DNA of 64,000 bases, from assembly GCA_016936395.1 (NCBI GenBank), contig JAFGXY010000004.1, positions 1 to 64,000 on the forward strand, in the 5' to 3' direction. A program made the translations under genes and the position numbers. This stretch comes from Paracoccaceae bacterium. GTDB lineage: Bacteria > Pseudomonadota > Alphaproteobacteria > Rhodobacterales > Rhodobacteraceae. The notes beneath the pieces were generated by a model. It was given only the letters and a program-made list of their open reading frames with translations, was not told where the DNA came from and did no database searches. How positions within the stretch are numbered: the stretch's first letter is position 1; every line of letters begins with the position of its first letter. Positions 40,211 through 61,178 of this stretch are shown piece by piece.

Positions 40211-40285
40211 GGCCCGTTCGTCTATCGGTTAGGACACCAGGTTTTCAACCTGGGAAGAGGGGTTCGACTCCCCTACGGGCTGCCA
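40211..40285 (+). tRNA. tRNA-Glu (anticodon TTC)
   Basis: The 75-nt sequence starts GGCCCGT and ends ACGGGCTGCCA with CCA encoded. The anticodon stem CCAGG/CCTGG flanks loop TTTTCAA, giving anticodon TTC. The T arm reads GAGGGGTTCGACTCCCC. The acceptor stem pairs fully with one G-U. The last 15 bases are the attachment core used by the elements to the right, so the gene stays intact after integration. Confidence 0.97.
40271..40285. other. Attachment site core, left (within tRNA-Glu 3' end)
   Basis: CCCTACGGGCTGCCA occurs here, again at 51092-51106, and with one change (T to C) at 61164-61178. The left copy is the tRNA 3' end, a classic target of tyrosine integrases. It marks the left boundary of element 1. 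Confidence 0.9.
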
Positions 40286-40810
40286 CAAATCCCCTCAAAA
40301 AGCGTTTAGATTCAACGCACTAGGTGAGGGGTGGCAAACCTGTCCCACCACATATGCCACCACGCGGAACAGGTCAGAATCCACCACCTGACACCACTGC
40401 CTCAATCGGTGCAGCGCACCCCGGCAGATACCGCCACAACGCAACACCCCCTAAAAACGGCCCTACAGCGCCCTTGCGGGGGCGGGGGTAGGCACCCATA
40501 CCCGGCGGGGGCGGAAGGCCCCTGTGCGGCCCGCCTATGCTGCCGCAGGCATATGGAGTCCCCGCGCGTGGCAAGGTCCGCAGGGCGGGTGCGCTTCGCG
40601 CTTGCGGCGCGGCTACGCCGATGCAGCGCCAGCCCGCTACGCGGCTGGCAGGCAGATAGCAGCAAGAACACTTCCCCCGCTGCATGGTCTGTATCTGGAA
40701 GCGATGCCACACGGCGCGCAGCGCCGGGGGGCGTTCTTGTTCCTTCCATGCGGAATCTTCCTTGCTCAGGTAATGGAAGGAACAAGAACAGTGTTACTAC
40801 CATTCTATCC
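40286..40810. other. Left end of element 1: no gene, repeats and inverted repeats
   Basis: This 525-bp stretch carries an arm-type repeat (40339-40370) and nested inverted repeats (40733-40832). Between them is very GC-rich sequence with short G and C runs. The open frames here (for example minus 40402-41031) are high-GC shadows with no domain. It is probably the noncoding attachment and replication end of the element. Confidence 0.55.
40339..40370. repeat. Direct repeat, left copy (possible integrase arm site)
   Basis: This 32-bp repeat matches 50948-50979 at 28 of 32 positions. It begins CCTGTCCCACCA and ends in ACCACGCGG followed by three bases. It lies 54 bp inside the left att core, while the other copy lies 113 bp inside the right core. 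The symmetric placement is that of arm-type binding sites of a tyrosine integrase or excisionase. Confidence 0.7.
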
Positions 40811-40832
40811 TCAGGAAGAAGATTCCGCATGG
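40733..40832. repeat. Nested, mutually exclusive inverted repeats
   Basis: Pair 1 has 17-bp perfect arms at 40733-40749 and 40773-40789 (GTTCTTGTTCCTTCCAT). Pair 2 has 15-bp perfect arms at 40746-40760 and 40818-40832 (CCATGCGGAATCTTC). The left arms overlap at 40746-40749, so both cannot form at the same time. The right arm of pair 2 overlaps the last codons of the gene at 40811. Confidence 0.75.
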
Positions 40833-41593
40833 CGCACCCCGGTGCGCTGCCGGGGCACGCTCCACCGCTGCCAGACACGTTCCGGGTGCACGCGCCGGTG
40901 ACGCTGCCGATGGTCGATGAACAGTTCCACCGCCACCGGCCAGAAGCGCCGCAACAGGGGGATGAACGGGCGTCGATAGACCCGAAGGGACAGCTTGTCC
41001 CGCTCCGGCCACATACGCCGCGCCGTCGCATACAGCGGGTCGGCCAGAAGTTCCCGGTGGAAAGGGCTTTGCCGCGTGTCCCGCAGGTCTATGGCCAACT
41101 CCACCTCTAGCTTCACATCGTCCATGAAGTCAGGCCAGTGAATCAGCGTGTGCCGGAAAATCTCCACCTGCCAGCCATCTGGCCAGTCACGGGCCAGCCC
41201 GCACAACATGCCGAACTCGCCACCGCTCACCTTTGCTTCCTTGGTCGCGCCGCACCAGTAGGCTTGCATCCCTTTGGCAATGGCCTTGGCCTGTTCCGCA
41301 CCCGGTTCGCCTACCCGCACAAGCGTCGTGATCCTGCCATTGATCGTGCAACGCAGCCGCACGATAGGCGGAACCTTGATCAACTCTTGGAACGTCCGAA
41401 GGCGAAAGTCGCCCGCCCTGCACCACGCCTCTTGCGAAAGCGGCTTTGCCCATATTTCCCCTTGGTGCTCAAATGGCGATGCTTCCTGCGCGCCCCGGAT
41501 CAACTCCACAAGCTGCGCGTGAATTAACTGCATCGCCGCCGATAAACCGACAGCCGAATTGCAATCTGACACGGGTTTTGATATATGGGGCAT
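40811..41593 (-). CDS. Element 1 conserved-looking protein, possible replication or regulatory role
   Basis: The 260-residue protein begins MPHISKPVSDCNSAVGLSAAMQLIHAQLV. It has a helical N-terminus with AKPLSQEAWCRAGDFRLRTFQELI, which resembles a winged-helix recognition segment. A basic middle and a Trp/Arg-rich C-terminus (LRRFWPVAVELFIDHRQRHRRV) follow. AGGACAAC is well placed before the ATG at 41593. I do not recognise a family. As the last gene of the element, next to att, with inverted repeats at its end, a replication role is possible but unproven. Confidence 0.6.
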   Translation of the reverse strand: MPHISKPVSDCNSAVGLSAAMQLIHAQLVELIRGAQEASPFEHQGEIWAKPLSQEAWCRAGDFRLRTFQELIKVPPIVRLRCTINGRITTLVRVGEPGAEQAKAIAKGMQAYWCGATKEAKVSGGEFGMLCGLARDWPDGWQVEIFRHTLIHWPDFMDDVKLEVELAIDLRDTRQSPFHRELLADPLYATARRMWPERDKLSLRVYRRPFIPLLRRFWPVAVELFIDHRQRHRRVHPERVWQRWSVPRQRTGVRHAESSS

Positions 41594-41652
41594 TGCGTTA
41601 GTTGTCCTACCTGCCCCGTCCGCGATTGGTCCTCGCGGGCGGGGTTTCCATT

Positions 41653-41997
41653 TCAGTGAATCGTTTCCGCATACATGGCGACAATATCGTGATCCACCGT
41701 GTAGGTCCGGGCGGTGCGGTTTGAATGAGGCGTGTAGCGGATCATGCCCCGACACTCCAAAGCGTGCAGCGCGCGGCGCACGGCCCCTTCGGACAGGTCC
41801 GTGAGTGCCTCAAGGTCATGTAAAGAAAGGGTAACGCACTCAGGCTTGCGCCCCGCGCTCAAGGCCATGATGTTCAACAGCACCTTGGTTTCGCTGCCGT
41901 TCAAGATGCGTGTTGCCTCCACCAGATTTGTCACCCGGTTGGCAAAAGTGACCAATTCGGCATCGTCCATTTCAATCGGGTTTTGCAGTGCGTTCAT
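41653..41997 (-). CDS. Winged-helix DNA-binding protein
   Basis: The 114-residue protein has a helix-turn-helix core: LNGSETKVLLNIMALSAGRKPECVTLSLHDLEALTDLSEGAVRRALHALECRGMIRYTPH. This is a winged-helix arrangement with wing residues RYTPHSNRTARTY. Such proteins often control phage or satellite genes. The ATG at 41997 is preferred because GGAGG lies 7 nt before it; the ATG at 42009 overlaps that site. It is upstream of the 40811 gene, so the two may be cotranscribed. Confidence 0.72.
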   Translation of the reverse strand: MNALQNPIEMDDAELVTFANRVTNLVEATRILNGSETKVLLNIMALSAGRKPECVTLSLHDLEALTDLSEGAVRRALHALECRGMIRYTPHSNRTARTYTVDHDIVAMYAETIH

Positions 41998-42068
41998 TTT
42001 AACCTCCATTGTGAGGCTTCAAATTAGCAAGAAAGCGATTCCAATAATAGGGGGTGCCGGATTAGTGG

Positions 42069-42494
42069 TCAGCCCGACTTTCGCACGCGGGTGCGATTGC
42101 GCGGGGTCGGTTTCGCACCGGGTGCGGGCAAGAATCCATATTGCCGCATTGCCGCACAGATCAGCAGAATGAACGGCACTCGATAGCCCCGCGACATTTT
42201 AAGCGCAGTGTCCATACGCAGATTTTTTGAATCGCCGCGCTCCTGCGCACTGATGATGGACGGTGCAAGGGTGCAGGCATCGGACACCTGTTTGCGGCCC
42301 CGCCCCGCCCGCGCTATGCGCAGCACCCGCGCAAGGGTCATGGTGCGCAGCCCATACCCGCCCGCCGCTTCCTTGGCCTTAAGCACCGCCGCTACATCGT
42401 CGCGGATGCCGAACTCTGCCGCCAGTTCCAAGAGCATGGCGCGGGGAATGTCGGCTTCGGGAATCTGGTCAAAGTCGGGCGTCGGGGACGGCAC
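42069..42494 (-). CDS. Helix-turn-helix protein (XRE-like)
   Basis: The 141-residue protein begins PSPTPDFDQIPEADIPRAMLLELAAEFGIRDDVA and carries TLARVLRIARAGRGRKQVSDACTLAPSIISAQERGDSKNLRMDTALKMSRGYRVPF. The latter fits an XRE-type helix-turn-helix. The C-terminus is basic (PTPRNRTRVRKSG). The GTG start at 42494 lies 1 bp after the stop of the 42496 gene. It may regulate the element, but the target is unknown. Confidence 0.68.
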   Translation of the reverse strand: MPSPTPDFDQIPEADIPRAMLLELAAEFGIRDDVAAVLKAKEAAGGYGLRTMTLARVLRIARAGRGRKQVSDACTLAPSIISAQERGDSKNLRMDTALKMSRGYRVPFILLICAAMRQYGFLPAPGAKPTPRNRTRVRKSG

Positions 42495-42495: not shown

Positions 42496-42873
42496 TCACG
42501 GCCCGCCTTGCACCGTGGGCGGGGTGCCTGTCCAGCGCATCACCGCCACCTTCACCGCCATGCCCATGGCATCGCGGCCCGCTACGCCCTTCACCAAGAG
42601 GAACGCACCGTCCGCCATCTGGATCAGGTCAGGCAAAGCGCCGACAGGTGCCACCAGCACCGCCACGCCGTCCCCCACATCACCCCCGCCAAGGTTGGAC
42701 ACTTCGTCCAGATCGCGCCACCGCACGCTTCCCCTGACTGTCTCGGCATAGTCGAACAGGTTTGGCGTCGGGCGGTTGTGCACCGGGTCAGCGGCGCGGG
42801 TGTAGAGGTGCATCACCCCCATGCCGGGGATGAACCGCGCAGCGCGGCGCATGGCATCGGCGGGGGAAGTCAT
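42496..42873 (-). CDS. Small phage-type structural protein, possibly head-tail joining
   Basis: The 125-residue protein begins MTSPADAMRRAARFIPGMGVMHLYTRAADP and has a beta-rich middle (VAVLVAPVGALPDLIQMADGAFLLVKGVAG). The position directly after the portal, sharing TGA/ATG, suggests a head-tail stopper or joining protein. No residue-level match to a named family is seen. The ATG at 42873 overlaps the portal stop; the GTG at 42882 is an alternative. Confidence 0.62.
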   Translation of the reverse strand: MTSPADAMRRAARFIPGMGVMHLYTRAADPVHNRPTPNLFDYAETVRGSVRWRDLDEVSNLGGGDVGDGVAVLVAPVGALPDLIQMADGAFLLVKGVAGRDAMGMAVKVAVMRWTGTPPTVQGGP

Positions 42874-43895
42874 TCGTTCCACCCCACCAGCGCCAAGGCT
42901 TTCTCAAGGGACATGCCCGCCCCCACCAGCGTGCCAACGGCCCGCGCCCGGCCCGCCACATCCGCAGACATCATGCTACCCGTGGACAGGGATGTGACAC
43001 CGATCTTTGCCAGTTCCGGCAACAGCGTCCGGGCCAAAGGTTCCACCGTTTGCAGGCAGAACAGGCGATAGGCTTCCCGCATGGCCCCAGCGTTCCCGCT
43101 GGGGGTCAGCAGCGCGGGCGGGATGCCCGCCGCCGCCAAGAGCCGCACATGCAGGGCTTCCACCGTGGCAGGCAGTTCGGCTTGCTCAAGGTCAGGGGTC
43201 AGTTCCACCCGCCGGAACTCGTTCGCCCGGTTGTTCCCGGTGGACGTGGCGAAGTCGGCTTTACTGCGAATCGCGGCCAGCATCCCGCCGCCTTTCAGAC
43301 CACGGATTGCGGCGGTTTGCTGTTCCTCTGGCACCGTGTCCGGGAAAGGCAGGACACCCCGCCCCACCCAATCCATTGCGCCCGACACCGCGCTTTCCAC
43401 TTCTGCCATGAGCCGGGGCGATGCCCCCATGAGCCGGAAAGGGCTGCGCCCGCGCCATGGCTGTTCCGCCGGGGCGTTGATCACCAGCCGCAGCACTTCG
43501 CCTTCAAGCGCCCGCACCGTCTCTGTAGAGGCAGGGTGCGCGATGTGCAGGTGATACCGCCCGCCGCCAAGTTCATCCCAATACGCGGCCCGGACAAGCC
43601 GCAGGCTGTTGCCCTGCACGCGGATGTGGAAGCAGGCTTCGCCGCGCAAGCACAGGTCCAGCCCGATTGCCGCAAGGTCCGCAGCCGTCAGCGGGTTGGG
43701 GTCCGGGTTGGCGTCCAGCATGGCGAAGGCCCGCGACCACGTTTGCGCGATTGCCGCGATGGTCGCAGACAAGGGCACCGCGCCATCGGACAAGACACCA
43801 GCCCGCCGCCCGGCAAGGTGTTCTGCCGTTACGCTGGGGAAGGCTGCGCGGGTTTCCAGCGGTTCCCGCCGCTTGAAGGGCCAAAGGTTCACCAT
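42870..43895 (-). CDS. Phage portal protein (HK97 family), element 1
   Basis: The portal forms the dodecameric DNA entry ring of the capsid. The 341-residue protein begins MVNLWPFKRREPLETRAAFPSV, the short basic start typical of HK97-type portals. LCLRGEACFHIRVQGN near residue 80 is another recognisable block. EFRRVELTPDLEQAELPATVEALHVRLLAAAGIPPALLTPSGNAGAMREAYRLF is the strongest part: the clip-and-stem region with an Ile-Pro-Pro turn. It is shorter than classic HK97 portals (about 400), mainly in the N-terminal wing. It overlaps the connector stop (43889). Confidence 0.85.
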   Translation of the reverse strand: MVNLWPFKRREPLETRAAFPSVTAEHLAGRRAGVLSDGAVPLSATIAAIAQTWSRAFAMLDANPDPNPLTAADLAAIGLDLCLRGEACFHIRVQGNSLRLVRAAYWDELGGGRYHLHIAHPASTETVRALEGEVLRLVINAPAEQPWRGRSPFRLMGASPRLMAEVESAVSGAMDWVGRGVLPFPDTVPEEQQTAAIRGLKGGGMLAAIRSKADFATSTGNNRANEFRRVELTPDLEQAELPATVEALHVRLLAAAGIPPALLTPSGNAGAMREAYRLFCLQTVEPLARTLLPELAKIGVTSLSTGSMMSADVAGRARAVGTLVGAGMSLEKALALVGWNE

Positions 43896-44440
43896 CTGAC
43901 TTCCCCCGCCAAGACAATCCCCGCGCCAGAGGCTTGGAACAGCCCACCCATGGCTTCGCGGGTCAAGGTGGAGTCACCCGCCTGCACTTGTCTGAACTCC
44001 CTCCGGGCGGCGCTGTTTATGGCCTGATAAAGGGCCAAGGCCCGGACAGCTTCCACCACATGCGCACCGGGTGCGGGCGTGACAGTGCCCACCTGTGTGA
44101 CGCGGTAGCGCGCGCCCGGTGCACAGAACGCAAGATGCCCGGAAGGCGCGTCATACATCGGGCCATCATCGGGCACCCATTGCCGCCCGGACAGCCGTTC
44201 CACCATCACCGAAACAGGCGCGGGCGAACGTGGCCACCACAGTTCGCAGGCTTCGCCCGCTTCCGCCGTGAACTGTGCCGCCGTGACGGGCCAATAGTTC
44301 CGGCCCGTGAAGGTTTCGGCCATCGCCCAGCTTGTCGCAATCAGCGCCGCTGCCCGGTCTTGGGTCACTGCCGCTTCAAGGGCCACTTCGCCGGGCGCGG
44401 GATAAGCGGGGGTGGCCCCGCGTGTCTGTGTGAAGTTCAT
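43889..44440 (-). CDS. Head-tail connector (gp6-like), element 1
   Basis: This 183-residue protein starts MNFTQTRGATPAYP. It shows the connector pattern: ALEAAVTQDRAAALIATSWAMAETFTGRNYWPVTAAQ, then a beta region. A helical C-terminus follows (VVEAVRALALYQAINSAARREFRQVQAGDSTLTREAMG). Family members sit under the portal and form the first neck ring. The ATG at 44440 overlaps the protease stop at 44437 as ATGA. Confidence 0.75.
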   Translation of the reverse strand: MNFTQTRGATPAYPAPGEVALEAAVTQDRAAALIATSWAMAETFTGRNYWPVTAAQFTAEAGEACELWWPRSPAPVSVMVERLSGRQWVPDDGPMYDAPSGHLAFCAPGARYRVTQVGTVTPAPGAHVVEAVRALALYQAINSAARREFRQVQAGDSTLTREAMGGLFQASGAGIVLAGEVRW

Positions 44441-45024
44441 GGAAGCCAAATCCTTTCCGGCTGCACCGGGTGCAGCGTTTGCATGGCGCGAAGTTCGGCT
44501 TGGCTGGCCTCATAGGCCGGGCGGGTGACAAGCGACAACTCCACCAGCAAGAGGTGAAGCAAGGTGCGGATGAACACGCCGGGGTTGCCCGGTTCCGGGT
44601 CCAGCCGTTCCGCGTTCGGCACCACGTCCTTCGGGGGGACGCGAAAGCCGGGACTGATACCCGTCACCAGCCCCGCCGCGACCATGGCCAGCGCGTCCCG
44701 AATGTGGGTCACGTCTTGCAGTTCTTCGGCAATCGCCGCCGTGAAGGTCAGGGCTTCGTCACTGTCCGACAGCACAAGCGAACCGTTGCGCCGGGACGCA
44801 AGGGGCGTGTCAAAGCTGTGCCCATAGAGCAAGTGAATGTCGCGTTCTTCATCTGCCAGGGCGAACTTAAAGGCCCCCGGCATGATGCGCTCTTTCCTCA
44901 CCTGCCCACGGTCAGCCATCACGGCAAGCGCGCCATAGGGGAACCGCCCGGCAATTACCGGGCGGCGTCCTTCGCGCCGCAGTTCAAGGCCCGCGCCGGG
45001 CCATGTCGCGCGCGTTTCCATCAT
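44437..45024 (-). CDS. HK97-family prohead protease, element 1
   Basis: The protease cleaves the capsid N-terminal delta domain during assembly. The 195-residue protein has YGHSFDTPLASR, containing the catalytic His near residue 68. AAGLVTGISPGFRV follows. The catalytic Ser lies in VELSLVTRPAY. The ATG at 45024 overlaps the capsid stop as TGATG. The same arrangement occurs in element 2. Confidence 0.88.
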   Translation of the reverse strand: MMETRATWPGAGLELRREGRRPVIAGRFPYGALAVMADRGQVRKERIMPGAFKFALADEERDIHLLYGHSFDTPLASRRNGSLVLSDSDEALTFTAAIAEELQDVTHIRDALAMVAAGLVTGISPGFRVPPKDVVPNAERLDPEPGNPGVFIRTLLHLLLVELSLVTRPAYEASQAELRAMQTLHPVQPERIWLP

Positions 45025-46292
45025 CAGGCCCGATCTTGAACAGCGGTCAGCTTGAAGAAGTGCGTGGCGGTGCGCTGGAACAGCAGATCAAGGAAGGCAA
45101 AGGTCGTGATCGCCACCTTGCCCGACTTGCTTTCCGAATAGGGGTCAATGATCACTTCCACCCCGCCCCACGTCGGCATCAGGGCGTGCCCGTCACCCGC
45201 CGCGAAGAACACCGTGGACGCGCCTTTGCCCGTGCCATCCCGCGCGCCCCGCGCCGATACCTGCGAACTCCACAGGGGGGCGAAGCCAAAGGCTTTCAGG
45301 CGGTCCAGTTCCGACACCGCAGTGCCTGCAATCAGGCTATCGGCAAGGGTCTGTGCCACAATGGGCGCACCCGCAATGCGGATGCCCGATGCGTCCGACA
45401 GCTTGGCGGTTTCTTGCAGTTCCACCGCCCGTTGCAGGAAGGCAGAGAACGAAGCCTTGCCCGTCAGTGCAGCCGTGCGCGCACCCGTCAGCATCGCACC
45501 AAGGCCCGCAGGTTCTTCACCCACGCCCGTGCCCCGGAACACGGCAAGGTCGATGCCCTGCCGCATGATTTCCGACAGGTCACGCCGCAGGATGGATTCC
45601 AGCGCCGGATTCTGCCGGGTCGCCTGCCGGGTCATGACGTAGCGGGCGGTCGCGGTGTGGATTGCGGGCGAAGTCGCCGTGGTCGTGATCGCGGCGCTAT
45701 CGGCACCGTCACCTTCCGCCACCCACGAAAGGCCACCGCCCCCGGTGATTTCGGGGAAGGACGGGGTGCCGGTGACTTGCAGCGCCCGGACGCCGAACCG
45801 CTGCGCGGCGCTGTTCTCAAAGAACCGCTCAAGGGCGTTCATCACCGGGCGCGCTTGCAACTCGCCCGTGGTGCCGGGCGCGGTATCGGTGACAGCATCG
45901 GCCCGCGTCTCAAGGGCGAAGGCTTCCCACGGGATCACCACGCCGCCCCGCTGGGGCGTCATGCCGCGCGTTTCCAGTTCGGCCACCACTTCCGCTTCGC
46001 GCCCGGACAGCGCCTTGCCTTCGGTGATCGCACCCACCAGCCCGGACAGGCTGAACGAACGGCACTCAAGGGCGAAGTCGGATTGCGCCTTGTCGGTGCC
46101 CTTGATGGTGGCGCGTTCCGCCCCTTCCACCAGCAGCGCGGCGCGAAGTTCCACCTCTGCCCCTTCGTATGCGTCCGCAAGCGAACGCAGTTCGGTGCGG
46201 CCTTCATCGCTCAGGGTTTCGGTTTTCTGGATTGCGGCCATACGTTCGCGGCGGCGCGATTGCGCAAGGGTGATTTCTTGGCTCTTGAGCAT
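45024..46292 (-). CDS. Phage major capsid protein (HK97 fold), element 1
   Basis: The 422-residue protein begins MLKSQEITLAQSRRRERMAAIQKTE, a helical delta domain up to about residue 110. The main HK97 domain follows, with ELETRGMTPQRGGVVIPWEAF, SFPEITGGGGLSWVAEGDGAD, LESILRRDLSEIMRQGIDLAVFRGTG and the P-domain. The C-terminus ends with FFAAGDGHALMPTWGGVEVIIDPYS. ATG at 46292 is preferred because it opens the helical domain; the longer reading overlaps HNH. HK97 capsids assemble with portal and protease, both adjacent. Confidence 0.88.
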   Translation of the reverse strand: MLKSQEITLAQSRRRERMAAIQKTETLSDEGRTELRSLADAYEGAEVELRAALLVEGAERATIKGTDKAQSDFALECRSFSLSGLVGAITEGKALSGREAEVVAELETRGMTPQRGGVVIPWEAFALETRADAVTDTAPGTTGELQARPVMNALERFFENSAAQRFGVRALQVTGTPSFPEITGGGGLSWVAEGDGADSAAITTTATSPAIHTATARYVMTRQATRQNPALESILRRDLSEIMRQGIDLAVFRGTGVGEEPAGLGAMLTGARTAALTGKASFSAFLQRAVELQETAKLSDASGIRIAGAPIVAQTLADSLIAGTAVSELDRLKAFGFAPLWSSQVSARGARDGTGKGASTVFFAAGDGHALMPTWGGVEVIIDPYSESKSGKVAITTFAFLDLLFQRTATHFFKLTAVQDRA

Positions 46293-46303: not shown

Positions 46304-46639
46304 TCAGGTTGCAGGGATGCCAGTCGCGGCCAAGAAGGCATCGCGTCCGGGGACGTTGCTTCGGTTGTGGGGTTTCGGGGGTTTCTTCTCGTGCCCGTGC
46401 CACCGCTCGCGGTTGGACTTTTCCGAATGGCATGACGTGCACAGGTATTGCAGGTTGGACGGGTCAAACACGCCGATGCCCAGCAAGCCAATGTCGCGGC
46501 GCGGGATCACATGATCCGCTTGCCCCGTCATGCCCAAGAACACGTTGCAGCACTCGCACCGGAAGGAAGCGCGATGCGCCACCATGGCCCGGACTTCGGC
46601 CCAGCGGGCGGTTTTCAGGGGGGCGGTGTTCGTCCTCAT
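46304..46639 (-). CDS. HNH endonuclease, element 1
   Basis: The 111-residue protein has the HNH zinc-finger motif: RCECCNVFLGMTGQADHVIPRRDIG, then FDPSNLQYLCTSCHSEKSN. The CxCC, DH, N and CxxCH positions fit a structural zinc with the catalytic His. Phage HNH proteins next to the large terminase assist cos-site cleavage in HK97-like packaging. It overlaps the terminase stop by 4 bp. Confidence 0.87.
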   Translation of the reverse strand: MRTNTAPLKTARWAEVRAMVAHRASFRCECCNVFLGMTGQADHVIPRRDIGLLGIGVFDPSNLQYLCTSCHSEKSNRERWHGHEKKPPKPHNRSNVPGRDAFLAATGIPAT

Positions 46640-48186
46640 AGGATTTCTACCTCGTATGTCGGTTTCACTTCGTCCCGCGCCCGCAACAGCGCGCTACAGG
46701 CCAAGACAAGACTGGACGCCACGTCGATGCGCGCGTGCGGGTGCGATTTGGAAAGCTGGCAAGCGCCCGTGGCAGACACCTTCACGTCCGCTTCGGCCAT
46801 GCTGCCTTCAAGCAGAAGGCTGCGCGCCATGGTGACGGCACCCGCAAGGAACAGCCGCCGCGTAGCGCGTATGTCCGCGTCCCCGTCCTTCGGCCCCGTC
46901 CCCCGGTAGATCACGGGCCACGCCAAGCGCGCCCGCGCCAAGGCGGTTTCAAACTCTGCCTGCCTGTAGCGGTCACAGGACACCGAACGCACCGGGTGCG
47001 GCCCGATCATGGCCACCAGCGCGGGGAAGAACTCGCCCAAGTCGGACACGCTGCCGCTTGTCTCGATCAACTCCCCAGCGATTGCGCAGCGTTCCCAAAG
47101 ATCGCCCACCAGATCACGCTTGCCGCGTTCGCGCAGGGTCAGGTCCGCGCCGGGGAAAGCCCCCAGCACCTTGACCACGCCGGACAGTTCATAGGCCACG
47201 GTTGCAGCCGTCATGCTGGCACTGCCGCCCAGATCAATCCCGATGTGAACAGGTTCGCCGGGGATGGTTTCTGGGTTGTCTGCATAGGACTTCCGCAGGG
47301 TGTCATAGTCCAAGAGCAGTTCGCGCCCCGGCTGTAGCGGGACGTTCAACTGCCACGCTTGGAACTCCACAAGACTGCCGGACTGTTCCGCCTTGGCGTG
47401 CGCGTCCTGCATGAAGCGCAAGGGCTTGATGGTGCCCAATCCGGGGTTGGCCTTCGCCCACACGTCCGGGTCGCCGGGATCATCGCCCTTGTCGGCTGCA
47501 TACAGCGTCACATGCGTGCGGGCGTCCGGGCGGTCGATCAGTTCATTGAACGAAGGGCTATCGCCCCGCGTCCCGGTTAAGATCAACTGCCCGCCCCGCG
47601 TGGCCAGACTGTCAAAGTAAGCCGTGATCAACTCGCCTTGGTTCTGGGTGATCAAGCCGCACTCGTCTATCACCGCAAGGTCAAGGTCCAAGCCGTGCCC
47701 CTGCGCGCGGGTGCCACTGGACAGCCACAGGTTGCCGCCGCCCAATTCGATGCGCCCCGGCTTGGGGTCCGCCCGCCGCTTGATTTCCTTTTCGCGGCCC
47801 GCTGCCTTCATGATTTCCACCATGGCGCGGGCGATGTAGGTGCAGTGCTTTTCCGATGGTGCCGCAACAGCCCCGTTGAAGCCGGGGATGTAGATGGGCG
47901 AATCCGGGCACATGCGCCCCAAGAACAGCGCGCCCAAGAGGGTGGACTTCCCCAGCTTTCGGGGCGTGCTGTAAATCGCCGTCCGGTAAACAGGTCCATC
48001 CGCTTCGCGGGCGAGGTAGCTTTTCAGGAAGGCCAGTTGGAAAGGTTCAAGGGCGAAGGGTGCCCCCGCGTTCATGCCAGACGGGATTTTGAACTTGGTC
48101 CGCAGCCAAAACGCAAAGCGCGCCTCAATTGAGGGGCGTTCACGATAGCGCACCGGGTGCGTAAAATGGCCTTCGCCGCCGTCCAT
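46636..48186 (-). CDS. Terminase large subunit (TerL), element 1
   Basis: TerL is the packaging motor and nuclease. The 516-residue protein begins MDGGEGHFTHPVRYRERPSIEARFAF. The ATPase has TPRKLGKSTLLG (Walker A) and LDLAVIDECG (Walker B with catalytic Glu). The nuclease has IGIDLGGSASM, SCDRYRQAEFE and ARIDVASSLVLA with acidic metal ligands. The ATG at 48186 has GGAAGG upstream. No small terminase is recognised upstream; the genes before it are tail-completion-like. Confidence 0.9.
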   Translation of the reverse strand: MDGGEGHFTHPVRYRERPSIEARFAFWLRTKFKIPSGMNAGAPFALEPFQLAFLKSYLAREADGPVYRTAIYSTPRKLGKSTLLGALFLGRMCPDSPIYIPGFNGAVAAPSEKHCTYIARAMVEIMKAAGREKEIKRRADPKPGRIELGGGNLWLSSGTRAQGHGLDLDLAVIDECGLITQNQGELITAYFDSLATRGGQLILTGTRGDSPSFNELIDRPDARTHVTLYAADKGDDPGDPDVWAKANPGLGTIKPLRFMQDAHAKAEQSGSLVEFQAWQLNVPLQPGRELLLDYDTLRKSYADNPETIPGEPVHIGIDLGGSASMTAATVAYELSGVVKVLGAFPGADLTLRERGKRDLVGDLWERCAIAGELIETSGSVSDLGEFFPALVAMIGPHPVRSVSCDRYRQAEFETALARARLAWPVIYRGTGPKDGDADIRATRRLFLAGAVTMARSLLLEGSMAEADVKVSATGACQLSKSHPHARIDVASSLVLACSALLRARDEVKPTYEVEIL

Positions 48187-48341
48187 AAGCCGCCTTCCAA
48201 TCCGGGCGGCGCAGACTCCTTTGCCCGCCCGCACTCCGCTCCTACTCCCCCCATAGTTGCCCGGCAGGGTTCCCTTAGGGGTTTGGGATTGAGTGCGAAC
48301 GTATCAGAGTCAGGGCTTTCGCATAATGGTGCGGCGGGTTT

Positions 48342-53185: not shown

Positions 53186-53188
53186 CTG

Positions 53189-53253: not shown

Positions 53254-53508
53254 TCAATTCGGATCGCGCGCGAGTTTCCCACCAGCCGCGACCCATTCCT
53301 TGCTGCGAAGTTCGGCAAGTTCCAAGACCTTGGCGCTGATCACATCAGCCAGCGCCATCAATGCCCCGTCCTTGGCGTGGATTGATCCTTCCAACCTCTC
53401 GTAACAGACCTGATTCAAGAGGAAGACCAGCCCTTCCAGCGTGGAAAACTGATAGTCATAGGCGTCAACAGCTTTGCGCAGTACCGCACAGTTTCGGGGT
53501 TTGCCCAC
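53254..53508 (-). CDS. Small protein, function unknown, element 2
   Basis: The 84-residue protein begins GKPRNCAVLRKAVDAYDYQFSTLEGLVFLLNQVCYERL and is largely helical. A GTG start at 53508 is the likely start. No family is recognised. It lies between the portal gene and the operator palindrome, so it ends the structural operon. Confidence 0.6.
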   Translation of the reverse strand: MGKPRNCAVLRKAVDAYDYQFSTLEGLVFLLNQVCYERLEGSIHAKDGALMALADVISAKVLELAELRSKEWVAAGGKLARDPN

Positions 53509-54672: not shown

Positions 54673-55244
54673 CACAGCCTCCATCGGTTCAGGTGGTCTA
54701 ACCTCGGGACGGTGCCGTCCCCAGGTTGCCAGTTGCGCGCCGTGATCTGTGCATCTGGATAGGCGGGACGGGTGACCGCGCTAATCTCGAACAGATCGGC
54801 CCGCCGGATCGTGCGCAGAATGGCGTTGCCGCGCTTTTCGACACCTTCGGCCCCAGGTGCCACGACAAAGCCCGGTGACAGGCCGGTGATCAGCCCCGCC
54901 GCATGCGATGCCAGGAAGTCCGCGACATAGGACACCGCCCGCAATTCGGCGGAAATGGTGGCCTCGATCACAAGCGCCGCGTCGGTGTCGGTGAGTTCCA
55001 GCGTCCCGGCAGATCGGGACGCCAGAGGCTTGTTGTAATCATGCCCGCTCAGGAAGTGGATTTCCTCCCCGCGCGCAATCCGATCACCGAAGGCCCGCGC
55101 CGCGATGATCTCTTTCCGGGTCATTCCAGAGCGCCCGCCATCCGACAGCACGGTTTCCCGGCCATAGGGGAAGGTGGCCCGAAGGCGAGTTTCCCCGCCT
55201 TCGTTGCGCAGCTCTAGCCCGCCAAGGTGAGCGCCCCAGAGCAT
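54672..55244 (-). CDS. HK97-family prohead protease, element 2
   Basis: The 190-residue protease has HFLSGHDYNKPLASR with the catalytic His, ASHAAGLITGLSPGFVV and EISAVTRPAYPDA with the catalytic Ser. It aligns well with element 1's protease across these blocks. The ATG at 55244 overlaps the capsid stop. The product is clearly the same family as in element 1 with many changes. Confidence 0.88.
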   Translation of the reverse strand: MLWGAHLGGLELRNEGGETRLRATFPYGRETVLSDGGRSGMTRKEIIAARAFGDRIARGEEIHFLSGHDYNKPLASRSAGTLELTDTDAALVIEATISAELRAVSYVADFLASHAAGLITGLSPGFVVAPGAEGVEKRGNAILRTIRRADLFEISAVTRPAYPDAQITARNWQPGDGTVPRLDHLNRWRL

Positions 55245-56509
55245 CACGCGCCCGCCAGTTCCAGCCCGGTCAGGACTTCAAGCTGTGCAGGGCGCGCGAC
55301 GGTCAGGTCAATCGTCGCCAGAGCGGTCAGACGAAGCCCGCCCGACTGTGCATCGCTGTAGGGGTCGCGGATCACGTCCACCGCACCCCATGCCCCGACG
55401 AAGATCGGCGCAACGCCGCCCGATGCCGTGGTCAGCAGAGCCGACACCGCAAGGGGAGTGCCAGCCGGTGCCGCCAGCGCATTCGGCGACATGGCGATGT
55501 TTTCCGGCGAGATAAAGCGGGTCAGGCGGTCCCACTCGGTCAGATCGAGAAGGATGGATTGCTGTTCGTCCAGGTATTCCCAAGCCTCAGGCCGCAGCAG
55601 CAGATTGACCGCGCCGGGACCGCTTGCCGCGTTGGCGACAAGGAACCGGGTGACAGCCGAACGGAAAGCCGAATTGGTGATTTCCGCGTCAACCGCCGTT
55701 GCCGTGATGCCGTAGGTCGCGGCCCCGGTGATCACGCCCAAAGGCTGACCATTCGCCCCGGTGCCACGAAACACCGCCTTGTCCATTTCAGCGCCCATCG
55801 CGCTTTGCATGTCGCGCCGAATGGCCGCTTCCAGCGCATCGCCCGACTGTTTCAGGGCTTTGCGGGTCACGCGCATGTGGATGCCAAGGTTATGATCCGG
55901 CGACAGCGCCCGGTCTGCCGTGGTGTATTGCGTCGGCCCCGGCACGTTTGCCGCTTCGCCGTCTGCCCAGCCCGCAGACACCGCCGAAGTGGTGACAGGC
56001 CATTCCACCGCGCCCGCGTCAATGCTGATCATCTGCGCGCCCATGCGGCCCGCCACAGAGGCAGGAAACAGGCGGTCGATGATCGGGCGGGTGTCGATCG
56101 GGTTCGGGGTTCCGCTAGCAACGGTGTTGCGCTGTTCCAGCGCCTGCCACGGAACCGGGAACCCACGGAAGCCGCCCGTGCTGCGAAGTTCCTGCACGAT
56201 TTCCGCCGTCGCGCCGTCCAGGTTGCGGCCTTCGTCCAGAGCCAAGGCGACTTGCCGCAGTTCAAAGCCATTGACCAGATCGGCCCATTGACGGCCTGCG
56301 CGGGTTTCCAGATCGGCCCCGGCCTCGCGCCGTTCCTGATCTTCGGTGATCAGCGCGGCCCGGTAGCGGGTTTCGTTGCCGCGATATTCCGCATCCATGG
56401 CTTCCATGTTGCGCAGTTCGTCGGCGGTCGCATCGGTCTTGCCGACAAGGCCCGCAAGAGCCTGACGGATTTCCGACTGACGCCGCGCGATTTTAACAGA
56501 GTCAAGCAT
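55244..56509 (-). CDS. Phage major capsid protein (HK97 fold), element 2
   Basis: The 421-residue capsid starts MLDSVKIARRQSEIRQALAGLV, a helical delta domain. ELRSTGGFRGFPVPWQALEQRN and MQSAMGAEMDKAVFRGTGANGQP then mark the HK97 core. The C-terminus is PIFVGAWGAVDVIRDPYSDAQSGGLRLTALATIDLTV. Its layout matches element 1's capsid closely. The long N-terminal open extension to 56764 lies over HNH and is rejected. Confidence 0.88.
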   Translation of the reverse strand: MLDSVKIARRQSEIRQALAGLVGKTDATADELRNMEAMDAEYRGNETRYRAALITEDQERREAGADLETRAGRQWADLVNGFELRQVALALDEGRNLDGATAEIVQELRSTGGFRGFPVPWQALEQRNTVASGTPNPIDTRPIIDRLFPASVAGRMGAQMISIDAGAVEWPVTTSAVSAGWADGEAANVPGPTQYTTADRALSPDHNLGIHMRVTRKALKQSGDALEAAIRRDMQSAMGAEMDKAVFRGTGANGQPLGVITGAATYGITATAVDAEITNSAFRSAVTRFLVANAASGPGAVNLLLRPEAWEYLDEQQSILLDLTEWDRLTRFISPENIAMSPNALAAPAGTPLAVSALLTTASGGVAPIFVGAWGAVDVIRDPYSDAQSGGLRLTALATIDLTVARPAQLEVLTGLELAGA

Positions 56510-56852
56510 CGTCAATATCCTTCTGTATGATGCCTCGATCATCCCCGCGCGACAGCGCAAGGACACAGTCCCGCCATTCTTGGCGGTCTTCAGGAAGCGG
56601 AGCGTGTCCGACTTCCAATCTCGTTTTTCGGGTGTGGCAGGGCTGACACCGAACGGCGCAATTCCCCGGCTGGAATGCCAGTTCGGGGTGCGTCCGAACC
56701 GGCTTGATATGGTCGATTTCCAGCCGCCCGCGACGGGTGCCACAGTCAACACAGGCGTAGCCATCCCGCTCTAGGATTGCCGCCCGCAGGATCTTCCACC
56801 GCTTTGTGGCGGTCACGCGCTTGGAGTGGCGCGCGTAGTCGTCGCGCGTCAT
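56502..56852 (-). CDS. HNH endonuclease, element 2
   Basis: The 116-residue protein has CVDCGTRRGRLEIDHIKPV, then GNCAVRCQPCHTRKTRLE: HNH zinc-finger and catalytic DH. The ATG at 56852 shares ATGA with the terminase stop; ATG at 56858 is an alternative. The position next to TerL and capsid matches element 1. Confidence 0.87.
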   Translation of the reverse strand: MTRDDYARHSKRVTATKRWKILRAAILERDGYACVDCGTRRGRLEIDHIKPVRTHPELAFQPGNCAVRCQPCHTRKTRLEVGHAPLPEDRQEWRDCVLALSRGDDRGIIQKDIDDA

Positions 56853-58456
56853 ACCCATTCCAGCTTCGCCTTTCGCTTTGGTGCAGCCATGCGCCGCTGA
56901 CCTTCGGCCACCGCAAGGACGGTTGCCGCCGCCGCGTCGATCCGGCCAAGGCTTCTGGCTTTCGCCAGCTTGTGATTGTTTGCCGGGTCGATCAGCGTGA
57001 TTGCGTCCGAGAAGGCAGAGCGCAGCAGCAGGCTAGGAGCCGCCTTCACTTCGCCGTCGAACAAGGCCCGCCGGAAGCGTTCAATGTCTTCGCTGCCATC
57101 CTTCCAGCCGAAGCCGCGCCAGATGAACGGGACGCGCAGCCCCGCCTTGTTCATGGCCTCGGCAAACTCGGCATGCCGGAAGCGGTCACCCACAATGCAG
57201 GCGATTTCAGCGTCACCAGCCAAGCGCACCAGAGAGGCAAGCCACGGCCCCGGCGGGACGGTGTTTTCGCCCATCACCGACAATTCGCCCCGGTCGTGCA
57301 TTTCGTTGTATCGCCCAGACACGCCGTCAGCCGCGCCCCTATCGCCTAGCGACGGAATGGCGGGGAAGGTGCCGACAGCTTCCAAGCGCCCGCTTTCCGG
57401 CCAGTAGAACGCCGCTGCCGACATGCTGCGAGAGCCGCCCAGGTCAACGCCCAGGATGCACTGACCTTGCCGGGGTGGCAGGTCATCGGGTGCCACCTCA
57501 GAGGCAAGCCATTCGTCCACGGTGATCAACACAGATCGGTCTTCGGTGCTGACACGCTCGTTGCGGTTCAAGTTGCGGAACGAAGCCAGCGCAGAGCCGC
57601 CCCGCGCGATAGCCCGCCGCGCCTGTGCCACCAGCCAGTCAGGGCTTGCGCCGATGCCTTCGGCGGAGCCGGGGTTAGCGACCAGCAGGCTTTCCAGATC
57701 ATCCGCAGGAAGCCCGAAGGCGGGTCGATGTTCCTGCACATAGGTGCCGGGTGGCGGGTCATCCATCCAGCGCGAAAAGGTGTTGGCGTCGTCAGGTGCC
57801 GATGTGCTGATGATCAGCGCCCGCCCGTCGCGCTTGCCCAAGCCCGACAGGATAGCGTTCTCAAGAGCATCGCCCTTGTCAGCGGTCCAGGCTGCGCGCT
57901 CGTCCATGATTGCCAGCGTGGGCGCACCTCCGAGAATGGATTTCCCATCGGCGGGGATCACGCGCAGCAGCCCGCCGCCGTTGGCGCTGTATTCGATTTC
58001 TAGCTTGTAGCCCCGGCGGATCACGAACAGTTCCTGTTCCGCCTCGGGCAAGCCTTCCACAAAGCCCGCGACAAACTGGAATGCGGTCTTCGCTTGGTCC
58101 CGGTTGCGGGCTGCGATGATCACTTCCCGCTTGGGCTGATCATCCCAAACGCCCATAAGCGCGCCCAGACCGATGCCCGCAGATGTCGCGGTCTTCGCGT
58201 TGCCGCGTCCGATTGACAGCAGCCCGACCATCACACCCTCGGCCATAGCGCCGCGAATGAACCGCTTTTGATACTCGGCCAGGACCAGCTTTTCGCCTGC
58301 CTTCGGCCCCTCGGGGATGCGCAGAGTTTGCAGAAACTCGATCACCGTTGCCGCAATTCCCCCCCCGGATTTTTCCGTGAGGGAAAGCGAATGACTCAAC
58401 CCGCCGGTCTTCTGTTGCCCCCCCTTGCGTGGCATTGGGACCATTTTCCGGGTCAT
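56849..58456 (-). CDS. Terminase large subunit (TerL), element 2
   Basis: The 535-residue protein has LSIGRGNAKTATSAGIG (Walker A type loop) and PTLAIMDERAAW (Walker B). The nuclease residues are in CILGVDLGGSRSMSAAAFYW, VGDRFRHAEFAEA and GRIDAAAATVLA. The ATG at 58456 shares ATGA with the connector stop. The protein is recognisably related to element 1's TerL but diverged. No small terminase is identified nearby. Confidence 0.9.
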   Translation of the reverse strand: MTRKMVPMPRKGGQQKTGGLSHSLSLTEKSGGGIAATVIEFLQTLRIPEGPKAGEKLVLAEYQKRFIRGAMAEGVMVGLLSIGRGNAKTATSAGIGLGALMGVWDDQPKREVIIAARNRDQAKTAFQFVAGFVEGLPEAEQELFVIRRGYKLEIEYSANGGGLLRVIPADGKSILGGAPTLAIMDERAAWTADKGDALENAILSGLGKRDGRALIISTSAPDDANTFSRWMDDPPPGTYVQEHRPAFGLPADDLESLLVANPGSAEGIGASPDWLVAQARRAIARGGSALASFRNLNRNERVSTEDRSVLITVDEWLASEVAPDDLPPRQGQCILGVDLGGSRSMSAAAFYWPESGRLEAVGTFPAIPSLGDRGAADGVSGRYNEMHDRGELSVMGENTVPPGPWLASLVRLAGDAEIACIVGDRFRHAEFAEAMNKAGLRVPFIWRGFGWKDGSEDIERFRRALFDGEVKAAPSLLLRSAFSDAITLIDPANNHKLAKARSLGRIDAAAATVLAVAEGQRRMAAPKRKAKLEWV

Positions 58457-59028
58457 ACGCGCACCTTGCGATAACGCGAACAAATGCGAATTGTTTGAGG
58501 CGCGAGAGTGATACCACTCCCCCCCCGCCCCACCCCTGGCCCATGGGGTGAGGGGTCATCCCCCCGCATGCTGTATGACCGCACGGCCTGTGCCGCTATG
58601 GCATGCAGCAGGTCTATGGGCAGGGTGGTGTGGTCATCCCCATAGCCTGCCACATAGGTGACGCGCAGGGGTGCGCCCGGTGTGGTGGTGAAGTGCAGGC
58701 GAGGGTATCGGCCCGCTTCCAGCCACCAGCCCGAAGGCACAGGCGTTGTGGTGCCGTCTGCCTCGATCACGTCAACAGACACGGTCGCGCCATCCTGCAC
58801 AGGCCCGACAGGCAAGGCGATGATGCAGCCCGGCCATTGGTCGGTAGTTGCCGTGATGGTCTGGCTTAGAAGGGCAAGATCGCAATAGCCCTCGATTTCC
58901 GCCGCTGCCGTTCTGGCAAGGCCGGTAATCACGCCATCCTCGAAGCTGTGAGTGACGCGCAGGTAATCCTTCACTGCCACCAGCGAAAAGGCGTCTGCCA
59001 TGGCAATGGGGGTGCGATTGTAATTCAT
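58453..59028 (-). CDS. Head-tail connector (gp6-like), element 2
   Basis: The 191-residue protein begins MNYNRTPIAMADAFSLVAVKDYLRVTHSFEDGVITGLARTAAAEIEGYCDLALLSQTITAT. The helix pair with VKDYLRVTH...DGVITGLARTA is the gp6-like connector pattern. A beta domain and a helical C-terminus follow. AAAGGCC precedes the ATG. In element 2 it lies upstream of TerL, whereas in element 1 it lies after the protease. Confidence 0.8.
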   Translation of the reverse strand: MNYNRTPIAMADAFSLVAVKDYLRVTHSFEDGVITGLARTAAAEIEGYCDLALLSQTITATTDQWPGCIIALPVGPVQDGATVSVDVIEADGTTTPVPSGWWLEAGRYPRLHFTTTPGAPLRVTYVAGYGDDHTTLPIDLLHAIAAQAVRSYSMRGDDPSPHGPGVGRGGSGITLAPQTIRICSRYRKVRV

Positions 59029-59161: not shown

Positions 59162-60433
59162 TCATTCCGCGACCCTCCAGGCAAAGCCATCAAGGACACG
59201 GATCACGCCCCGCTCTTGCAGGCCCTTCCATGCCTTGTGGAAGGCAGTGCGCTTGCTACTGTCACCCTCACCAGCAGACAGCGAATGGCGGTCGCAGGCT
59301 TCGCGCCAATCCTCCAAGGACACGCACTTGCGATTGGTTGGGAAGTCTTCGCCGCCTTTGGTGACGCCGTGATCTTTGACCGCATCGGAGAAAGCCTGCA
59401 TGGCAATCAGGGCTTGGCCCTTAAGCCGTGGTGGACGCTTGGCAGGTGCTTCGGTCGGTAAAACGACAGCCGAAAAGACCTTGTCGCCGTCTTCGTCGTT
59501 GCCAAGAAAGACGCTCTTGAGGGTGTAGGCGAAAGGCTTGCCGACCTGCATGTCGCGTTGCTTGCGCTGTGTGGCGACGATCACTTCACCATCGCGCGTC
59601 AGTTCGATTTCAGTGTCAGACGCGCCCCGAAGTGAGCCGCTACCCCGCGCCCCCTTGGTCGTGTCCTTGCCTGAATGGTGAATGACCATCACATGCGCGC
59701 CCGTAGCGGTTCGGATGTGACGGCAGTTCTGGACGAAAGCGCCCATGTCCTTGGCGGTGTTTTCATCGCCGCTGCCAAAGGCCATGGCCAGGGTGTCGAT
59801 GATGATCAGAATGGGGTCGATGAAGTCATCCTTGAGGGCTTCGCATAGAGCCGCCGCGTCGGTTGCGCCGCAAAGATCAAGCGCGGTCTTCATCAGGATG
59901 AAGTCGCCGCCGTCCATGGCCTGCATCATATCAGCGTAGTGAAGGCGCATTGCCTCGATACGGTTATTGATCCCCGAACCGCCTTCGCCCGCGATGTAAA
60001 CCACGTTGCCGCCGTTCACGCGGATGCCGTGCCAGTCTTCGCCGGATGCAACGTGCATCGCCAGATCGAGCGCCAGGAAGGTCTTCCCCACGTTGCTTTC
60101 GCCGTAGAGAACAGAGAACGCTTCACGGTCTAGCCAGCCCTTGACCATGTATCTGGATTTCAGAACCGGCTTTAGATCGTGAAGCCCGACCATCTGGGAT
60201 TGCAGGTCTTCCATCCTGCCCTTTGCGGTTGGAACGATGTAGCGCGGTTTGCCGACATTCTGGCGATGTGCAGCATCCCGCGCGCCCATGCCTTCGAATG
60301 GAGCCATGAATAGGGGATCGCCCGGCTTTGCGTTTGGCCGGGGAACCGCGTAAGGCGTTGGGTTGACAGGCGGATGATCGAAGGTTGACGGATCGCGCCT
60401 GCCCGCGCCTGGGATGTGGTTGCCATCGGCCAT
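59162..60433 (-). CDS. RepA-like RecA-fold replicative helicase, element 2
   Basis: The 423-residue ATPase has Walker A GESNVGKTFLALDLAM near residue 110 and Walker B PILIIIDTLAMAF near 205. A hexameric helicase motif MVIHHSGKDTTKGARGSGSLRGASD follows. This is the RepA/AAA_25 class of phage and plasmid helicases. The C-terminus is a small winged-helix-like part (KRTAFHKAWKGLQERGVIRVLDGF). The ATG at 60433 overlaps the 60433-60711 gene stop. It gives the satellite its own replication function. Confidence 0.83.
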   Translation of the reverse strand: MADGNHIPGAGRRDPSTFDHPPVNPTPYAVPRPNAKPGDPLFMAPFEGMGARDAAHRQNVGKPRYIVPTAKGRMEDLQSQMVGLHDLKPVLKSRYMVKGWLDREAFSVLYGESNVGKTFLALDLAMHVASGEDWHGIRVNGGNVVYIAGEGGSGINNRIEAMRLHYADMMQAMDGGDFILMKTALDLCGATDAAALCEALKDDFIDPILIIIDTLAMAFGSGDENTAKDMGAFVQNCRHIRTATGAHVMVIHHSGKDTTKGARGSGSLRGASDTEIELTRDGEVIVATQRKQRDMQVGKPFAYTLKSVFLGNDEDGDKVFSAVVLPTEAPAKRPPRLKGQALIAMQAFSDAVKDHGVTKGGEDFPTNRKCVSLEDWREACDRHSLSAGEGDSSKRTAFHKAWKGLQERGVIRVLDGFAWRVAE

Positions 60434-60711
60434 CACACGCCCCCCCGCTCTTGTGCCGACATGTGCGCTCGGAACAGGTCCGCCGCCGCCTCGGGGTTTT
60501 TCGACAAGACTTCAAAAAGGTTCGCGGCGTCAGTCAGGTTCTTGGCTAAGCCCGCCGCTTCCTCTTGGCTGATGGTCACCCACCAATCCGGGTTGTAATA
60601 CTTGCCAGAGCCTTCGGACGTCTCGCGGCACATTTCGACATTCCGCTGCACCATGCGTTCGGAAGAGCGCAGTACATCGGCGGCTAGATTGCAGTATTCC
60701 TTGAGGTCCAT
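60433..60711 (-). CDS. Small helical protein, function unknown
   Basis: The 92-residue protein (MDLKEYCNLAADVLRSSERMVQRNVEMC, then ISQEEAAGLAKNLTDAANLFEVL) is helical with heptad-like pattern. It is coupled by TGATG-type overlap to the helicase downstream and to the 60711 gene upstream. No family is recognised. Confidence 0.65.
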   Translation of the reverse strand: MDLKEYCNLAADVLRSSERMVQRNVEMCRETSEGSGKYYNPDWWVTISQEEAAGLAKNLTDAANLFEVLSKNPEAAADLFRAHMSAQERGGV

Positions 60712-61076
60712 CATGCCGCCCCCTGCACATAGGCCAGGAACGCCCGCTGATCGGCCCCAGACAGCCGGTTGAAACAGGCCAGCGCATAGGCTTTCAGTTC
60801 AGCAGGGGTGGCATAATCGGCCCACCAGGACGCATCATCCATGACGTGGAACAGCGTCGGGCGCGGTTCGCCGAAGGTCAGATCGGACAGCGCCTTTTCA
60901 ATGATCAACGCCGCGTCGTGCGGGTCGCATTTCACGATTGCGAGGCACAAAGCCATTGTCGGAGACAGGTTTGTGGAGTAGTATTCTGGAATACCGCTTT
61001 TAAACTGATCAGCCCCGGTTGCGCCCGCCAGCGCGCCGGGGTTTTCGTTTGCCGAACCTTCGGAACGGTTGGACAA
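60711..61076 (-). CDS. First gene of the element 2 operon, function unknown
   Basis: The 121-residue protein (MSNRSEGSANENPGALAGATGADQFKSGI, then a helical part with EKALSDLTFGEPRPTLFHVMDDASWWADYATPAELKAYALACF) has a low-complexity start and a helical C-terminal half. ATG at 61076 is the first candidate. No family is recognised. The gene lies just inside the right att site, so its promoter must be in the short 61077-61163 stretch. Confidence 0.65.
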   Translation of the reverse strand: MSNRSEGSANENPGALAGATGADQFKSGIPEYYSTNLSPTMALCLAIVKCDPHDAALIIEKALSDLTFGEPRPTLFHVMDDASWWADYATPAELKAYALACFNRLSGADQRAFLAYVQGAA

Positions 61077-61163
61077 ATCGCCATATTCGCCAATGTTATC
61101 AAAGGGGCGATTATCAGGGGTTGGACGTGCTAACCCTCTTGAAATTACAGGATAGTTTTCGCC

Positions 61164-61178
61164 CCCTACGGGCCGCCA
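61164..61178. other. Attachment site core, right
   Basis: CCCTACGGGCCGCCA differs from the other cores at one base. The following CTCAA matches the middle core's flank. It marks the right boundary of the whole accessory block. Confidence 0.85.

Follow-up and report, generated by a model that had tools for sequence, protein, structure and literature searches.

The window considered here, a stretch of 64,000 nucleotides from a Paracoccaceae bacterium (assembly GCA_016936395.1, contig JAFGXY010000004.1), contains two islands, A and B, stacked at a tRNA-Glu gene. Three copies of an attachment (att) core, CCCTACGGGCTGCCAC, starting at 40271, 51092 and 61164, bear out the original prediction of two bounded blocks (10.8 and 10.1 kb): A measures 10.82 kb and B 10.07 kb between the cores, together covering 40271-61179 (Table 1). 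The chance of a given 16-mer recurring here is about 5e-6 by simple arithmetic (22,500 / 4^16). The host is likely a member of the Rhodobacteraceae, as had been proposed.

The assigned genes of both islands all lie on the minus strand. Read in the order of transcription, A encodes an integrase, an AlpA-like regulator, homologues of gp23 and gp22 of the phage RcZahn, the large terminase subunit (TerL), an HNH endonuclease, the capsid protein, the prohead protease, an adaptor, the portal, and a set of small proteins and regulators; B encodes two small proteins, an AAA_25 helicase, the adaptor B_Ad1, TerL, HNH, capsid, protease, portal, further small proteins and the integrase. Every component foreseen for each island, i.e. 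integrase, portal, protease, capsid, HNH, TerL and a connector, is thus present, with the portal of A recognised by similarity only. The HNH open reading frames (ORFs) score 31.7 (A) and 29.5 bits (B) against PF01844 (cut-off 21.4 bits) and are overlapped by over-long capsid ORFs, whose likely starts lie near 46292 (A) and 56509 (B). The reading frames of capsid and TerL are open in both islands.

Every listed ORF was scanned in Pfam, PHROGs or both. No lysis, tail-shaft or baseplate family was found among the scanned ORFs of the two islands, which agrees with the earlier view of them as devoid of tail and lysis genes; the one nuance is A_196, the gp22-like protein of A, which weakly matches a 'tail completion or Neck1' family. 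The same scans recognised a small terminase subunit (TerS) in neither island, though a diverged TerS could be missed, and calling the packaging set 'complete' was therefore too strong. Matches to phrog_4581, a 'terminase small subunit' family, were rejected as TerS since they cover the HNH domain. A Pri-Rep initiator was likewise found in neither island, with nothing of that kind recognised in A, and AlpA had no match in B. Taken with the comparisons given below, this content makes the status of A and B as capsid-making, tail-stealing satellites well supported on sequence grounds, and we consider it highly probable that they are two distinct integrated phage satellites, each building its own capsid and taking its tail from another element.

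Table 1. Attachment sites and predicted genes of islands A and B (positions in the window)
Feature	Position	Strand	Remarks
tRNA-Glu(TTC), attachment gene	40211..40285	+	ARAGORN, Rfam
att core, left end of A	40271..40286	+	tRNA 3' end
Possible integrase arm-type repeat near A left end	40339..40370	+	88% to 50948-50979
A: 314-aa ORF, possible replication protein	40811..41755	-	29% to ORF in one A relative; no Pfam/PHROG match
A: 118-aa helix-turn-helix protein	41653..42009	-	matches below Pfam cut-offs
A: 141-aa protein	42069..42494	-	repressor-like by eye; in some A relatives
A: 128-aa protein	42496..42882	-	in some A relatives
A: portal	42870..43895	-	no hidden Markov model match; similarity to B-family portals only
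A: head-tail adaptor	43889..44449	-	predicted fold nearest the neck adaptor of a gene-transfer agent (GTA)
A: prohead protease S78	44437..45024	-
A: major capsid protein	45024..46292	-	likely start M51 of long ORF to 46442
A: HNH endonuclease	46304..46639	-	PF01844
A: terminase large subunit	46636..48234	-
A_196: junction (neck) protein	48342..48932	-	RcZahn gp22 homologue
A_158: divergent RcZahn gp23 homologue	48942..49418	-	putative terminator, by position
A: AlpA-like regulator	49415..49663	-	25.7 bits, cut-off 21
A: tyrosine integrase	49748..50932	-
Possible arm-type repeat near A right end	50948..50979	+
att core, A/B junction	51092..51107	+	16/16
B: tyrosine integrase	51112..52206	-
B: 67-aa ORF beside integrase	52203..52406	-	in 6/80 genome loci
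B: 271-aa protein	52382..53197	-	no family
B: 84-aa protein	53254..53508	-	no family
B: portal	53569..54684	-	Pfam
B: prohead protease	54672..55247	-
B: major capsid protein	55244..56509	-	likely start M86 of long ORF to 56764
B: HNH endonuclease	56502..56858	-	PF01844
B: terminase large subunit	56849..58483	-
B_Ad1: head-tail adaptor	58453..59028	-	similar to GTA adaptor
B: AAA_25 replication helicase	59162..60436	-	related to primase/helicase PHROGs
B: 93-aa ORF	60433..60714	-	no family
B: 121-aa protein	60711..61076	-	in 24/80 genome loci
att core, right end of B	61164..61179	+	15/16 (one change)

Relatives of the islands

Searches started from an alignment of capsid B with six relatives recovered 155 related capsids in genome contigs and 405 in viral contigs, of which 80 each were kept. 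Going by record titles, the 80 genome loci come mostly from Rhodobacteraceae, with some from Hyphomicrobiales, Sphingomonadales and Reyranella and one from a metagenome-assembled genome (MAG) named Oceanospirillaceae; these are the orders and families to which we take the genera to belong. Relatives of capsid A number 17 in viral contigs. Across 390 genomes of the order, 47 encode a capsid of the broad family (E <= 1e-15), four of them, including the present genome, being of A type by score. In a 28-row tree the capsids of A and B fall into two distinct clades, each with 100/100 support, and both types keep the order TerL, HNH, capsid, protease, portal, unlike HK97. All capsid matches in 50,697 phage records are less than 28% identical. 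In summary, the B family is large and mainly alphaproteobacterial, and the A capsids constitute a separate, rarer clade.

Of the 80 genome loci, 42 have the module bounded by a tRNA-derived repeat, at many different tRNAs, giving islands of 9,414-10,991 bp (mean 10,276, standard deviation 386), a spread that is partly conditioned on size, as a locus was called bounded when the repeat lay 9.4-11 kb away. Two loci with 14-base repeats (L096, L121) were included in this set; four whose 12-14-base repeats are spaced differently (L054, L079, L094, L126) were left out, and six with repeats about 10.0-11.3 kb apart (L058, L076, L093, L101, L113, L117) were not added. TerL, capsid, protease and portal occur in all 42 (the capsid by construction of the search), an Ad1-like protein in 21, a B-type integrase in 24 and an AAA helicase in 12. 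The relatives occur as free-standing islands of about 10 kb. No case of a relative embedded in a full-length prophage was observed, with one A relative, L306, being ambiguous. The kept B-type viral contigs range from 4.1 to 15.2 kb, and the many short ones may be fragments; no terminal repeats of 15-300 bases, such as circular contigs have, were found among 99 viral contigs. Some genomes hold several B-type capsid loci in separate places, e.g. a MAG of Roseovarius sp. SP300 (L094, L095, L122) and Tropicibacter alexandrii (L065, L129).

The absence of tails extends to these relatives: 18 tail queries, taken from RcZahn and from three regions with tail genes in this genome, matched none of the 80 genome loci and none of the 99 viral contigs at E <= 1e-6. 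Among seven control loci, the only cross matches of these queries were to L046, L317 and L318. Scanning 123 of the 153 listed non-core ORFs of 18 islands gave 19 Pfam families, which include two head-completion proteins and one connector and no tail-shaft or lysis family; 25 of the 105 PHROG families matched were available for inspection, and tail PHROGs are possible among the rest.

Head-tail junction proteins and tails in the same genome

The two islands differ in the proteins that would join head to tail. A_196 matches 12 phage records, seven of which align with 77-80% of its length and are 37-42% identical; the best match is from Rhizobium phage RHph_Y1_11 (39.6%, 1e-26), and the best among Rhodobacter phages is RcZahn gp22 (38.5%, 2e-22). 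In RcZahn the head-to-tail adaptor gp21 is followed by gp22 and gp23, both annotated as 'minor tail protein'. The gene order of HK97 and the weak Neck1 match of A_196 suggest that gp22 is a neck protein and gp23 a terminator, and we count A_196 as a head-tail junction protein despite the annotation of its RcZahn homologue. A gp23 homologue lies just upstream of the gp22 homologue in six A relatives (profile E 1.5e-21 to 8.5e-29), and A_158 occupies the same place; it scores 17.9 bits with a combined gp23 profile (6.8 at most among 500 shuffles) and misses with a profile built from phages only (E 0.04).

Gene sets were compared for 19 A-type elements (excluding the short contigs L210, L297 and L308) and 96 B-type elements (without the 26 of 80 viral contigs shorter than 8.5 kb). 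Of the 19 A sets, 11 have a gp22-like and 7 a gp23-like protein, most of these matches being the very sequences that built the profiles, and neither occurs in any of the 96 B sets, whereas B_Ad1-like proteins occur in 60 of the B sets and none of the A sets. B_Ad1 resembles the adaptor of a GTA-type cluster in this genome (phmmer 2.4e-13), has nothing comparable on the compared stretches of two other tail-bearing contigs, C49 and C63, and has similar adaptors in seven phage records. The adaptor of A, modelled at pLDDT 84.6, finds its nearest structure in 6toa, the neck of a GTA particle (E 7.7e-4, probability 1.0, TM about 0.5, 14% identity). In Rhodobacter capsulatus DSM 1710, the B-type island (L097), which sits at a tRNA-Thr gene, encodes at 9324-9665 a head-completion (stopper) protein, PF05521, not found in island B of the window; the set of connectors is thus not uniform across the B family.

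Three other regions of the genome bear tail genes. Contig C49 holds lambda-type phage genes (GpA terminase, lambda-family portal, capsid E and tape measure) together with a GTA-like tail tip (L314, L315), and is a candidate helper with unrelated head genes. The start of C63 holds Mu-like genes (protease, tape measure and tail genes) in a region cut by the contig end, so that the head set is partly visible. Both elements are probably prophages. Contig C72 has the GTA-type cluster, with tail genes and its own capsid and portal, at a locus separate from the islands. A search with PF10145 (tape measure) had no match in this genome and was misleading, as PHROGs named tape measures on C49 and C63. 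The possibility, raised with the original prediction, that tails of the same phage lie elsewhere was rejected, since the tail modules of C49, C63 and C72 each adjoin other head genes; no headless tail module was seen in the genome. A_196 scores 18.6 bits against a DUF6441 protein of C49, a weak match compared with the 94.6 bits against RcZahn gp22.

The genome also has a third island, of 8.97 kb at a tRNA-Phe gene with a 50-base att repeat (contig C59; L044 1572-10537). It encodes an integrase, a helix-turn-helix protein, a fused protease-capsid, a major-tail-like protein (phrog_1407) and a 499-residue phrog_6841 protein, with no terminase or portal among ten scanned ORFs. Two other genomes have comparable fused capsids close to a tRNA gene: G010 (L048, tRNA-Cys, 47-base repeat) and G003 (L049, tRNA-Glu).

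The stacked site and alternative explanations

Counting the present genome, 14 of the 16 genomes of the genus match the left flank of the site (up to 40285) over a long stretch, and in 11 of them the match extends into the tRNA. The right end of B is supported by a congeneric genome (G005), in which a stretch 90.8% identical to 61180-61320 directly follows tRNA-Glu. Near the ends of B a single 9-base pair of repeats was found. No second stacked pair appeared among 164 loci in a survey of A- and B-type modules; 45 of the 80 genome loci span at least 20 kb, with the neighbour partly covered. The tandem arrangement hence looks unusual. Strong capsid matches among the 15 other members of the genus were confined to two genomes, G002 with the A type on contig C1 and G004, listed with 8% contamination, with the B type on contig C12; in both cases the homologous tRNA-Glu locus lies on a different contig (C76 and C37).

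Rather than by two integrations at one site, the stack might have arisen when two tRNA-Glu loci, each occupied by a single satellite, recombined, which we regard as the less likely course though one to be taken seriously. In keeping with it, the left flank corresponds to one tRNA-Glu locus of the relatives, whereas 61180-61320 and 62032-62350 resemble the sequence beside their second tRNA-Glu copy (G005, G002). Moreover, one tRNA-Glu copy was found in this genome, and the gene that precedes copy 2 in the relatives is present on C63 (near 41800) with no tRNA after it; one copy thus seems to have been lost or moved. Weighing on the other side, the right flanks of both loci vary among the relatives, and the stretch 62029-62428 also occurs in loci of G003 and G012 with no tRNA in the part fetched, and may therefore be mobile; the genome itself is 91.5% complete in 77 contigs.

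Descent from prophages that lost tails and lysis genes and were stacked by chance would account for the HK97-type head genes of both islands, the unrecognised TerS and the several small ORFs belonging to no family. We reject it as very improbable because of the constant island length and conserved core: decay would not be expected to yield 42 islands that share one core and a length of 10.3 +/- 0.4 kb while sitting at many tRNAs. The open capsid and TerL frames and the lack of any phage record with a capsid over 28% identical speak against it as well. An identity as relatives or parts of the host GTA is suggested by the resemblance of B_Ad1 to a GTA adaptor and of the modelled A adaptor to 6toa, yet it is refuted by the C72 cluster with its own capsid and portal, and the islands, with integrases and att sites, are patchily distributed (47/390 genomes); as an explanation of the islands it has next to no probability, and docking on GTA tails is left as a possibility.

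Several points weigh against reading A and B as tail-stealing satellites integrated one behind the other. The right flank resembles the second tRNA-Glu locus, so that the site may have been rearranged too. The tail negative comes from 18 queries of moderate reach, the seven control loci being matched mostly by their own proteins, and neither a small terminase nor a packaging site was identified in either island. The 21.5-kb contig of L306 runs on into what appear by eye to be other phage-like ORFs. The capsid tree does not resolve how A and B relate to each other relative to phage capsids, the outgroup branches being long. As to the junction, the case for particular helpers draws on one or two genes: the A adaptor has no match in phage records, the fold search with A_196 was uninformative, A_158 alone has no phage match, and a gp22-like match is absent from 8 of the 19 A sets, including the close relative in G002, on top of the circularity of the profile counts given above. 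Nor are the A and B sets independent: of the 42 bounded islands, 11 turn up again in the viral contigs, and L036 and L211 are almost the same element.

The record behind L306 (also L320) can be described further: an A-type cassette is followed by integrase- and primase-like ORFs and, farther on, by a terminase pair (all by eye), which is possibly a second stacked element.

Known systems and a predicted mechanism

Capsid-forming phage-inducible chromosomal islands (cf-PICIs) offer the closest parallel. In the passages that describe them, they carry capsid, protease, portal, connectors, both terminases and HNH (PMC10690885), together with AlpA and a Pri-Rep initiator (PMC10448857), have a mean size of 14 kb and are listed mainly from Enterobacteriaceae, Pasteurella, Morganellaceae and Gram-positive groups (PMC10803314), even though they are also called widely distributed across Bacteria (PMC10690885); further passages on them occur in PMC11389934. 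Published cf-PICI capsids fall into three clades. A and B resemble cf-PICIs in being integrated, in lacking tails and in encoding their own capsid, protease, portal, connectors, TerL and HNH. The original prediction of two cf-PICI-like satellites thus stands as far as integrated, capsid-encoding and tail-less islands are concerned, but not for strict cf-PICI membership or the 'exact content' claimed. Membership in the described family is favoured by the integrase, capsid, protease, portal, connector, TerL and HNH of both islands and the AlpA of A; it is opposed by the lack of a recognised TerS or Pri-Rep, the lack of AlpA in B, sizes of about 10 kb against the 14-kb mean and the order TerL-HNH-capsid-protease-portal, and appears to us rather unlikely. 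The alphaproteobacterial hosts and the gp22/gp23-type genes of A set them further apart, a separation drawn from published descriptions rather than sequences. A and B would work like cf-PICIs, whereas their gene content falls short of showing membership in that family.

Other systems share single traits with the islands. The Streptomyces phage satellites MulchRoom and MiniFlayer, as far as they are described in passages of PMC10690885, encode capsids and use virulent helpers, and one has an integrase; they differ in their hosts, linear genomes, terminal repeats of about 1 kb and a scaffolding protein, and the link of A to a virulent phage is by comparison indirect. HK97-like phages have in common with the islands TerL (profile match 6z6d, E 4e-62; HK97 at 29%), the S78 protease and phage capsid families, whereas HK97 runs TerS-TerL-portal-protease-capsid-connectors-tail and the islands have no recognised TerS, tail or lysis genes. 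The phages RcZahn (Rhodobacter), RHph_Y1_11 and RHph_I4 (Rhizobium), of 100-108 kb, share with A the gp22/gp23-type junction proteins; among the island proteins, these alone match, with none found for the RcZahn portal, protease, capsid or adaptor. RcZahn appears virulent, according to a passage of PMC8601537. The RcGTA type resembles B in its adaptor and A in the predicted fold of its adaptor (at the same low identity). A GTA cluster of this type is defined by head and tail genes in one cluster, as on C72, whereas the islands encode integrases, and the scans detected no tail genes in them. A literature search turned up no satellite of this kind in Rhodobacteraceae, passages of PMC8682789 included, a weak negative as the original cf-PICI and SatelliteFinder papers were not part of it.

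The gene content and att copies suggest the following cycle. The tyrosine integrase of each island would insert it at the 3' end of tRNA-Glu, and upon induction or superinfection the island would be excised and replicated, B with its own AAA helicase. An HK97-type head holding about 10 kb would be built from the island's capsid, protease and portal and filled by its own TerL and HNH; the island's own connector would then be presented for a foreign tail to dock. Here A would add its two RcZahn gp22/gp23-type junction proteins and B would use its GTA/HK97-type adaptor. We infer that the connector type decides which tail is stolen, and the tail sources of A and B are probably different: the junction proteins of A point to a large siphophage of the RcZahn kind as its probable helper, and the adaptor of B to another long-tailed phage as its probable tail donor. 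A bolder scenario, in which B docks via its GTA-like adaptor on host GTA tails and A via captured junction genes on large virulent siphophages of the RcZahn kind, so that the stacked pair divides the tails, seems to us improbable; were it true, B could move without any infecting phage.

What is new here is that A carries two junction genes related to gp22 and gp23 of phages of about 100 kb (RcZahn type). The lineage described is alphaproteobacterial, common, very constant in size and distinguished by its own gene order. If such junction genes mark the tail that a satellite uses, its helper would be predictable from sequence. The B-type copy in the record of R. capsulatus DSM 1710 makes the family open to experiment.

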